DNA of 64,000 nucleotides, from assembly GCF_021653975.1 (NCBI RefSeq), contig NZ_JAJKFK010000003.1, positions 682,001 through 746,000 of the forward strand, read 5' to 3'. Below are positions 15,232 through 58,740 of this stretch, piece by piece. Position 1 is the stretch's first letter. Every line of letters starts with the position of its first letter. A program made the translations under genes and the position numbers. The stretch is from Amycolatopsis sp. GM8. Lineage in GTDB: Bacteria; Actinomycetota; Actinomycetes; Mycobacteriales; Pseudonocardiaceae. The notes beneath the pieces are model-generated. The model was not told the origin of the DNA, ran no database searches, and was given only the letters and a program-made list of their open reading frames with translations.

Positions 15232-15348
15232 GGGGCCCGCGCTTGCCCGCCGCACTGCGCGGCCGGCCAGGTCCTCACCCGGGGCACCCCACCGCGGTTG
15301 GAGGGTTGCCGGCCAGCAAGCCGGGGCTACGCGCTGGCACTCATGACC
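15232..15348 (-). ncRNA. SAM-IV riboswitch
   Basis: On the minus strand the element begins GGTCATGAGTGCCAGCG, continues with the GCCCCGGCTTGCTGGCCGGC stem-loop, AACCCTCC, CGCGGTGGGGTGCCCCGGGTGA, and ends GGGCAAGCGCGGGCCCC. This matches, nearly base for base in the core, the mycobacterial SAM-IV aptamer as I recall it. It stops about 20 bases before the GAGGAGG ribosome site of the class V aminotransferase gene, so control of translation by S-adenosylmethionine is likely. A TAAGGT -10-like hexamer (15356-15361) sits seven bases before the aptamer; no clear -35 is seen. Confidence 0.9.
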
Positions 15349-45291: not shown

Positions 45292-45320
45292 GATCACCCC
45301 CCTTTCGCCCCAAGAGAAAA

Positions 45321-45414
45321 CGGATGCCGTCAGGTCCCCGCCCGCCCGCTGAGAACCTGGTGCCGGGGAAGGTGCACCAGGGCCACTGAGCGGACAGAGG
45401 CCTCACGGCATCCG
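45321..45414 (-). ncRNA. mraW-type cis-regulatory RNA motif
   Basis: Between mraZ and rsmH the sequence folds as nested stems: an outer ten-base stem CGGATGCCGT/ACGGCATCCG (45321-45330 with 45405-45414), a middle CCGCT/AGCGG pairing and an inner CCTGGTGC/GCACCAGG hairpin (8 bp). Location and layout match the mraW RNA motif described upstream of actinobacterial mraW genes. The ligand or function is not known to me. Confidence 0.75.
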
Positions 45415-45436
45415 AGTCCAGGTCGTCCTGCCGGGT

Positions 45437-57387: not shown

Positions 57388-58177
57388 CACCGTCTTCCTC
57401 GCCGGCAAGATGCTCGACCGGGCGCTCGCCGGACGGACGTTGTCCCGCACCGACTTCCGCCATCCCGCACTCGCCACCGCCGACCTGACCGGCCGGCAGG
57501 TGCTGGGCGTGGGCACCGTCGGCAAGCACCTGTTCACCCGGTTCTCCGGCGAGCTGAGCCTGCACAGCCACCTCAAGATGGACGGCACCTGGGAGATCTA
57601 CCGGGCCGGCGCGCGGTGGCGGCATCCGGCGCACCACATGCGGGTCGTGCTGGCCGACGCGCGGGTGCAGGCCGTCGGGTTCCGGCTGCACGATCTCGAG
57701 CTGCTGCCCACCGGCGAGGAGTCCCGGCTCGTCGGGCACCTCGGCCCGGACCTGCTCGATCCACAGTGGACGGACGAGCACACCGCGCTGGCCGCCGCCG
57801 CGCTGGCCGCCGATCCCGCGCGTGAACTCGGTCTGGCGTTGCTCGACCAGCGAGTCATGGCGGGTGTCGGGAATTTGTACAAGTGCGAGATCTGTTTCCT
57901 GCTCGGCGTCACGCCGTGGGTTCCGGTGTCCGAAGTGGACACCGCGAAGGCCGTGGCGCTGGCGCGCAAGCTGTTGCTGGCCAACGCCTGGCGGCACGAG
58001 CAGGTCACCACCGGGGACCTCGCGCGCGGCCGCCGCACCTGGGTGTACGAGCGCACCCGGGCCGGCTGCCATCGCTGCGGCGGCCCGGTGCGGGTCGGCA
58101 CCCAGGGCACGGACGTGCGGCGGCGGCCCACCTGGTACTGCCCGCGCTGCCAGCGCGGGCCCGCGCCCGCGGAGTGA
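57374..58177 (+). CDS. Fpg/Nei-family DNA glycosylase (Nei-like)
   Basis: A 267-residue bifunctional DNA glycosylase/AP lyase. After Met removal the N-terminus is PEGDT, the Pro nucleophile and Glu of the Nei branch. The H2TH domain (LDQRVMAGVGNLYKCE) and the C-terminal zinc finger CHRCGGPV...WYCPRCQ are intact. It would excise oxidised pyrimidines or opened purines. Coupled to parA. Confidence 0.93.
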   Translation: MPEGDTVFLAGKMLDRALAGRTLSRTDFRHPALATADLTGRQVLGVGTVGKHLFTRFSGELSLHSHLKMDGTWEIYRAGARWRHPAHHMRVVLADARVQAVGFRLHDLELLPTGEESRLVGHLGPDLLDPQWTDEHTALAAAALAADPARELGLALLDQRVMAGVGNLYKCEICFLLGVTPWVPVSEVDTAKAVALARKLLLANAWRHEQVTTGDLARGRRTWVYERTRAGCHRCGGPVRVGTQGTDVRRRPTWYCPRCQRGPAPAE

Positions 58178-58188
58178 AATAAATGATG

Positions 58189-58218
58189 TTGCGGCGACGC
58201 CCGGCGCCGGCATAACTT
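58189..58218 (+). promoter_or_regulatory. Candidate promoter of the 58.2-kb leader
   Basis: TTGCGG (58189-58194), an 18-base spacer and TAACTT (58213-58218). Transcription would start near 58225, only a few bases before the AAAGGAGGTGGTCC sequence. It lies 12 bases past the glycosylase stop. Confidence 0.4.
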
Positions 58219-58231
58219 TGCGGTACACGGG

Positions 58232-58245
58232 AAAGGAGGTGGTCC
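58232..58245 (+). promoter_or_regulatory. Extreme Shine-Dalgarno sequence
   Basis: AAAGGAGGTGGTCC can pair over 14 bases with the 16S rRNA 3' end (GGAUCACCUCCUUU), with a single G-U wobble. Ordinary sites in this window match four to seven bases. It precedes a TTG start by four bases. Confidence 0.8.
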
Positions 58246-58249
58246 TACG

Positions 58250-58288
58250 TTGAATATCGACAGGACTCGTGAGGTGGCTGTCCGCTAG
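58250..58288 (+). CDS. Putative 12-residue leader peptide
   Basis: TTG-started frame encoding MNIDRTREVAVR then TAG. The strong site at 58232-58245 argues that it is translated. The stop codon falls inside the palindrome TGTCCGCTAGCGGACA (58279-58294), so a ribosome at the stop would melt that hairpin. No rare-codon run or amino-acid bias that would point to classical attenuation is seen. Confidence 0.5.
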   Translation: MNIDRTREVAVR

Positions 58289-58740
58289 CGGACAAAGCTG
58301 CGAGAAGCTCGTGCCGGCCGCAAGCCGGTACGAAGTGCCGCGCCCGTCGACGCCGCCGGCGTCCGGGCCGCGACAGGACAGTGGAGGCCTGCGAGGCAAT
58401 ACCAGGCAGTCACCGGACCCCCGGCGCCCCGAGCACAGTCCGGCTCGGGCCCACAGCGGCTGACGACGCTGCGGGAGCACGCGCCGGGGGTTTCCTGTCT
58501 CCCGGATCGCCGTCCAAGACCGGGAGTTCCGCCGGACTTGCCGCGCATCGGACACTTCCGGCGGGCCAACTACCAATCCGACCGAAAGTAGGCGGACACG
58601 GTCCGCAGCCGACCTGCTCACAGACACCCGTTTCCGCCGTGGCTGCCGTCGGATTGGTAGTGGACGGCGCTGTAACTTTTCAACATTTTCCTGCCGTAAT
58701 TGCCCAGGTGACCCGCGCACATGCGACTACGCTGCTCCGT

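Follow-up and report, generated by a model that had tools for sequence, protein, structure and literature searches.

Does the region in front of a GNAT gene of Amycolatopsis sp. GM8 serve as a leader of this gene, or does it contain an RNA with a role of its own? The question arises from a 64,000-nucleotide stretch of DNA (the window), in which a first-pass annotation described a single 515-base element, an undescribed-looking structured leader, directly upstream of the GNAT gene. The GNAT gene is indeed present. It starts at GTG 58741, matches Pfam Acetyltransf_3 with an E-value of 7.2e-25, and is followed by a dihydroorotate dehydrogenase gene, while an Fpg-like glycosylase gene ends upstream at 58177. 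The RNA between these genes is, however, known as a family. The plus strand at 58225-58499 matches Rfam family RF02471 (Ms_IGR-5) over the entire model (1-184 of 184) with 56.2 bits, as compared to the gathering score of 45, and contains the 3' domain of the Rfam consensus, which consists of the terminator stem and the inner hairpin. The window element is a new member of this already catalogued family, the entry label of which in Rfam is 'Actinobacteria sRNA'. The Rfam scan of the window also reports a SAM-IV riboswitch at 15234-15348 (108.2 bits) and an mraW RNA motif at 45312-45419 (67 bits), both on the minus strand.

The impression that a similar block occurs in other actinomycetes as an RNA family is borne out by the distribution of RF02471. 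It is found in 192 of the 296 genomes of a class sample and in 57 of the 296 genomes of a phylum sample (26 of these 57 over the cut-off), and is absent from all 14 control genomes. A search of named genomes with an exact motif gives at least 120 stretches. The 80 exact-motif rows among the matches listed carry names that we take to be actinobacterial, and Nocardioides, Mycobacterium, Blastococcus, Geodermatophilus, Cellulomonas, Kribbella and Jiangella are among the matches listed. A single Ms_IGR-5 pattern searched against viral contigs gives no exact match.

For comparison, a class set was assembled from 80 of the 192 Rfam matches and from 17 of the 20 genomes obtained by nucleotide search. 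The class rows were found with a motif containing parts of SD1, the ribosome site described below, and of GTGAGGTGGC; three loci missed by the motif were recovered from the Rfam match. The conservation of these parts of SD1 and GTGAGGTGGC within the class is in part a result of selection, because the class rows were chosen with a motif containing both. Thirty-eight distant members were collected outside the class. Of these, 31 score below the Rfam cut-off and were accepted because SD1, the strands of helix C, GAGGTG and an open frame are present. After removal of near-identical rows, 91 of 94 rows were used for class covariation and 122 of 129 rows for combined covariation. The covariation E-values given below were calculated with a custom tree-based null and not with R-scape.

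The coordinates of the features are summarized in Table 1. The promoter is immediately preceded by an A/T-rich stretch, and the pattern TTGNNN-N16-19-TANNNT is present at the promoter position in 73 of 128 members, as compared to none of 910 control stretches taken farther upstream; TANNNT alone is present at this position in 106 of 128 members. At the other end, terminator stem T is an 11-bp, G+C-rich stem, and the RNA ends at the T-rich stretch after it. The gene content around the RNA differs in other lineages. With a promoter and a terminator of its own and with neighbours that vary between lineages, 58225-58499 is, as judged from its sequence and surroundings, an autonomous RNA gene. The 515-base interval is not a single element: the RF02471 match stops at 58499, at the terminator stem and its T-rich tail, and what fills the 3' half of the interval is spacer and a dispersed repeat. 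Thus, with shifting neighbours and a repeat before the GNAT gene, the supposed leader is this RNA gene plus unrelated sequence. One copy of the repeat lies at 58569-58661, between the RNA and the GNAT gene. It is MITE-like, about 100 bp long, has perfect 14-bp inverted ends (ACTACCAATCCGAC/GTCGGATTGGTAGT), and has 20 more matches in its own genome and many in two genomes of the same genus (G004 and G008), at roughly 70-97% identity.

Table 1. Positions of the features of the Ms_IGR-5 locus in the window
Feature	Position	Strand	Description
Promoter	58189..58218	+	-35 TTGCGG 58189-58194, 18-nt spacer, -10 TAACTT 58213-58218
Ms_IGR-5 RNA	58225..58499	+	full-length match to the RF02471 model
Helix C, 5' strand	58226..58229	+	CACG; pairs with 58268-58271
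SD1	58230..58245	+	GGAAAGGAGGTGGTCC; complement of the whole 16S 3' tail
12-codon ORF	58250..58288	+	TTG 58250 to TAG 58286-58288; peptide MNIDRTREVAVR, peptide not conserved
Pseudoknot helix E, 5' strand	58263..58267	+	GGACT; pairs with 58437-58441
Helix C, 3' strand	58268..58271	+	CGTG; from pairing counts and covariation
SD2	58271..58276	+	GAGGTG; 9 nt before the stop codon
Helix B, 5' strand	58273..58282	+	GGTGGCTGTC; pairs with 58405-58414
Variable region	58292..58398	+	about 100 nt longer in the window member and four same-genus relatives than in the remaining members of the genus
Helix B, 3' strand	58405..58414	+	GGCAGTCACC; from pairing counts, shuffle control and covariation
Terminator stem T, 5' arm	58417..58427	+	pairs with 58481-58491
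Inner hairpin of the 3' domain	58428..58449	+	loop 58435-58442 with AGTCC 58437-58441 (helix E, 3' strand); from the Rfam structure
Terminator stem T, 3' arm and T-rich tail	58481..58499	+	3' arm 58481-58491; from sequence, Rfam structure and covariation

The anti-16S match that was noted in the first pass extends over the entire tail. GGAAAGGAGGTGGTCC pairs with 16 of the 16 bases of the 16S tail GGATCACCTCCTTTCT, which was taken from the 16S gene of the same genome, when G-U pairs are counted. The 15-base core GAAAGGAGGTGRTCC, searched with at most one mismatch, has two sites in the genome of 8,157,730 bases, namely SD1 and the complement of the 16S tail; the control, the reversed pattern, has one site on each strand. 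SD1 and 16S rRNA pair without a break (G-U included) over 16 positions in 85 of the 91 class rows, over 15 in four, over 14 in one and over 12 in one; a 16-pair run is also present in 37 of the 38 distant rows.

The 12-codon frame annotated behind this site has its stop codon inside a palindrome as described (GTCCGCTAGCGGAC, 58280-58293), and the frame is conserved when the loci are compared. An ATG, GTG or TTG start is present in 96 of the 97 class loci examined. Among the 94 loci found with the motif, 93 have such a start (TTG in 54, ATG in 29 and GTG in 10), the frame of these 93 being 12 codons long in 91 and 13 codons in two, and ending with TAG in 87, TAA in three and TGA in three. L022 has ATT as the start codon. 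The three members missed by the motif have a GTG start and 12 codons each. By parsimony on a tree of the 91 class rows, 90 of which have the ORF, the start codon has changed 15 times, always among ATG, GTG and TTG, and the stop codon five times, always from stop to stop. A start followed by an open frame to the conserved stop is present in the true frame in 95 of the 97 class loci (96 with L117), as compared to 0 and 19 of 97 in the other two frames; the corresponding numbers for the 38 distant members are 21, 0 and 5. The open frame to the stop is kept in all 38 members outside the class (L241 by eye). Of these, 21 start with ATG, GTG or TTG and 17 have only a near-cognate codon (CTG, ATC, ATT, ATA or ACG), the assignment of which is uncertain because it was picked from a list of eight codons. 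These near-cognate starts in the distant set (L240-L277) sit behind a full or near-full match to the 16S tail; whether they relate to start-codon discrimination by IF3 is a matter of speculation.

A second putative ribosome-binding motif, SD2, is located within the frame. GAGGTG, which is part of the motif used to select the class rows, is identical in all 91 of them and in all 38 distant rows. The distance from SD2 to the stop codon is 9 nt in 126 of 128 rows and 8 nt in two (L022 left out; L241 by eye). GAGGUG lies six bases before the last sense codon; a distance of about six bases from GAGGUG to the P-site codon, with the stop codon in the A site, is a normal SD spacing. In the 91 class rows, the GGUG half of SD2 is constant and the paired CACC varies in 12 cells, always to a wobble pair. 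We infer that SD2 is a second 16S contact, which would retain the terminating ribosome.

The RNA is predicted to be strongly folded. The minimum free energy of 58223-58500 is -145.5 kcal/mol (z -3.93), none of 200 shuffled sequences is as low, and the single-sequence fold of the window element includes helix B and the terminator. Some of the conserved helices are long-range. Over the 91 class rows, standard pairs make up 97.5% of the cells in helix C, 96.2% in helix B, 93.8% in pseudoknot helix E and 94.2% in terminator stem T, as compared to 81.8% in a local hairpin A and 87.9% in hairpin D of the Rfam structure. Double changes are observed in these rows at five of the ten pairs of helix B and at all nine pairs counted of stem T. 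Double changes of helix E to GGAT/ATCC and, among the distant members, to CGACC/GGTCG are also seen. Mismatches in helix B occur, for example in L043, and at its fifth pair in 9 of 91 rows. When one strand of helix C is slid by two positions, 72.4% of the cells pair (97.5% observed) and the number of double-change cells drops from 25 to 0; when one strand of helix B is slid by three positions, these values are 74.6% (96.2% observed) and 7 instead of 49. In a shuffled-partner control, in which 102 of 129 rows could be anchored (the row of the window itself is among the 27 dropped), some anchors are visibly wrong (L045 and L256) and kinship is ignored, none of 200 shuffles is as low for helices B and C, in the class and in the distant set alike, while for helix E four of 200 shuffles are as good in the class and none in the distant set.

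Covariation calculated from 122 rows agrees with these counts, so that the stems proposed for such a check do covary in helices C and B, stem T and, more weakly, helix E. In helix C, 58227-58270 and 58228-58269 have E=0, a level unreached in 80 simulations, and 58229-58268 has E=0.275. Two pairs of stem T have E=0.0125, 58279-58408 and 58281-58406 of helix B have E=0.06 and 0.075, 58428-58449 of the inner hairpin has E=0.54, and 58267-58437 of helix E has E=0.69. High ranks are also reached by two shadow pairs next to helix C (0.25 and 0.275), and non-standard pairs turn up from E of about 1.2. With the class rows alone, the best pair has E=0.28 in helix B, 0.47 in helix C and 2.8 in helix E. 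By these measures, helix E is the weakest of the helices, and in L271 and L274 no clear partner of its 5' strand is seen in the 3' domain. The predicted anatomy of the element is well supported. The term 'structured leader' is therefore right in its first half, the structure being strong, conserved and covarying, but wrong in its second, since the RNA gene appears to be autonomous.

The loop that separates the 5' strands of helices C and E holds SD1 and the start codon. The 5' strand of helix E, the 3' strand of helix C, one unpaired A and the 5' strand of helix B follow each other directly, so that codons 5-11 form one strand and may be part of a nearly continuous composite helix of 19 bp. 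Hairpin A, a weak candidate at the stop codon, has one pair with double changes and may compete with helix B; in the window element the palindrome at 58280-58293 takes its place. Hairpin D (GGUCC/GGAC) is possible in the window element, but was rejected as the main structure: it has no double change in 455 cells of the 91 class rows, its fifth pair is missing in 48 of these rows, and the G to A change that breaks it in five rows converts a G-U pair with 16S rRNA to an A-U pair. The variable region of the window member contains an insertion, which L002-L005 of the same genus share, which the eight remaining same-genus genomes from the nucleotide search do not show, and which is predicted to form long hairpins. 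At 58395-58403, just 5' of the 3' strand of helix B, there is a recurrent GGCGAAUNCC-like motif, which is also present by eye in other members.

The published record of this RNA consists, in the open-licence literature searched, of catalogue-level mentions. Two papers record Ms_IGR-5 among the sRNA transcripts of S. lividans and S. avermitilis (PMC8079986, PMC8780764), and an sRNA of M. smegmatis overlaps IGR-5 (PMC10454040). Ribosome footprints on MS_IGR-5 are reported for M. abscessus and M. smegmatis in a paper which warns that footprints on noncoding RNAs can stem from RNPs that sediment with ribosomes (PMC4974804). Of the signals that the first-pass annotation proposed to look for, a transcript and ribosome footprints are thus reported in relatives. 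The passages on Ms_IGR-5 in these four papers do not mention an ORF, a pseudoknot or a function of Ms_IGR-5, and the main text of a survey of coding sRNAs (PMC5521070) contains no word starting with 'IGR'.

The most economical reading of these results, to which we assign an even chance of being correct, is that the product of the autonomous Ms_IGR-5 RNA gene acts as a ribosome-operated switch. The switch itself is deduced from the arrangement of the conserved parts, as follows. When no ribosome is bound, the RNA would be compactly folded by helices C, B and E, with SD1 and the start codon exposed in the open loop. SD1 would capture a 30S subunit by pairing with the entire 16S tail. Helices E, C and B would then have to be melted, first by the initiation complex and afterwards by the elongating ribosome. 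Judged from usual footprints, a 30S subunit on the start codon already reaches helices E and C; helix B would be opened by elongation. Once the stop codon is in the A site, the distance from GAGGUG to the P-site codon would be that of a normal SD, and GAGGUG could hold the ribosome there. The RNA would then report or soak up initiating ribosomes, and the folded state would mark cells or moments with little initiation. The two states may differ in stability, in a protein partner, or simply in the titration of ribosomes. That Ms_IGR-5 represents a new functional RNA class, a free-standing ribosome sensor in which the micro-ORF is translated for the passage of the ribosome and not for the peptide, is a more tentative proposal, which we doubt somewhat more than we believe. 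If it is true, an SD that covers the whole tail loads the ribosome, the ribosome opens the pseudoknot, an SD-like hexamer before the stop codon parks it, and the RNA, by being either folded or held by a ribosome, signals translation capacity in much of the phylum.

The Ms_IGR-5 RNA might instead be a trans-acting antisense sRNA that pairs with target mRNAs, the translation of the short frame merely protecting or maturing the RNA. By the title of its discovery paper it was found as an sRNA with heterologous Hfq, its sRNA transcript in the two Streptomyces species fits this role, and it contains C-rich stretches. We nevertheless consider this unlikely, as the most constant parts of the RNA are SD1 and GAGGUG, and the candidate seeds, the 3' strand of helix B and the loop AGUCC, co-vary with their internal partners, which a conserved external target would oppose. 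Both were rejected as conserved trans-acting seeds on this ground. A ribosome sponge, which titrates 30S subunits by the full match to the 16S tail only and is folded just for stability, agrees with the conserved promoter and with the search of the genome, in which SD1 and the 16S complement were the only near-full matches to the tail. It needs neither the reading frame nor the stop codon, yet both are kept, and we regard it as improbable.

In favour of a micro-gene, the product of which would be the 12-residue peptide, the frame is conserved and the residues TREVA look conserved within the class. However, 13 of the 139 changes in codons 2-4 on the 91-row class tree are synonymous, as compared to 13.8 expected when the changed position is random, so that these codons show no amino-acid constraint. 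In codons 5-12, synonymous changes are fewer than expected (44 of 119 changes, as compared to 65.7), as the pairing of the RNA would impose, and a change of Arg to Cys goes with the covariation of helix C. The RNA motifs are also read in another frame in other clades. In 14 of the 38 distant members, GGAC is located 8 instead of 7 bases before GAGGTG and is therefore read in another frame, the start codon shifting along. In L271 and L274, one base fewer precedes the stop codon and GAGGTG is read in another frame, while start and stop are still in frame, 10 codons long; these short members also have a simpler 3' end and are possibly a separate subtype. These results suggest that the peptide itself does not matter, and make the micro-gene very improbable.

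A leader or attenuator that acts in cis on the gene behind it, which at this locus is the GNAT gene, agrees with the intrinsic terminator and with the 11 same-genus loci, in which the GNAT cluster is located downstream in eight and the dehydrogenase cluster in all 11. A conserved regulated gene downstream in cis is, however, not found at 77 related loci: of the genes called nearest on the downstream side, 41 are convergent and 28 co-directional, and at eight loci no such gene is called. With these orientations, neighbours that vary by lineage, and a promoter and terminator of its own, cis regulation of the GNAT gene was rejected, and a leader function in general is given hardly any chance. A plain noncoding RNA, in which SD1 and the frame are by-products of the structure, is just as implausible: the RNA is filed as an sRNA gene in Rfam and a helix takes up much of the ORF, but structure alone would not lead one to expect interchanging start and stop codons, one-codon insertions (L112 and L114) or compensated frame changes.

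The ribosome-operated switch accordingly remains our preferred reading, and the comparison of loci has a meaning beyond it. An RNA filed as an sRNA appears, from comparisons across the phylum, to be a translated RNA, the peptide of which seems irrelevant and the frame of which is locked into three covarying helices. Ms_IGR-5 would thus be a clean case in which translation is conserved and its product is not, and a widespread, unexplained actinobacterial sRNA becomes directly testable. As far as the literature searched is concerned, the apparent translation of the frame, the likely irrelevance of the peptide and the three extra helices are new.

The window element shares its 5' block, its 3' terminator domain and its phylum with RF02471, and differs from it by about 100 extra nucleotides in the middle. 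In the Rfam structure line, helices B, C and E are missing and the SD is paired instead (GGUCC with GGAC). Translation-coupled attenuators and uORF leaders, such as the trp leader, resemble Ms_IGR-5 in having a short ORF, the translation of which would choose the fold of the RNA. Further examples are rbf in S. aureus (PMC13009471) and TopAI-YjhQ (PMC12121999). Unlike these systems, Ms_IGR-5 has no conserved downstream gene, is apparently autonomous and ends in a terminator, and no run of repeated sensor codons is seen in the short frames of the class loci. Dual-function sRNAs, such as SgrS/SgrT and RNAIII/hld, likewise hold a translated short frame, but their peptide is functional, whereas in Ms_IGR-5 the frame is conserved inside conserved helices and purifying selection on the peptide is not detected. 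tmRNA, which gives no match in the Rfam scan of the window, is also a pseudoknotted RNA with a frame of about a dozen codons that deals with the ribosome; Ms_IGR-5 differs from it by having its own SD and start codon and no conserved tag. A further comparison is with autonomous RNAs that engage a core machine, as 6S RNA does. Mycobacterial Ms1 engages the RNA polymerase core (PMC10454040). For Ms_IGR-5, in contrast, the sequence points to the 30S ribosome as the partner.
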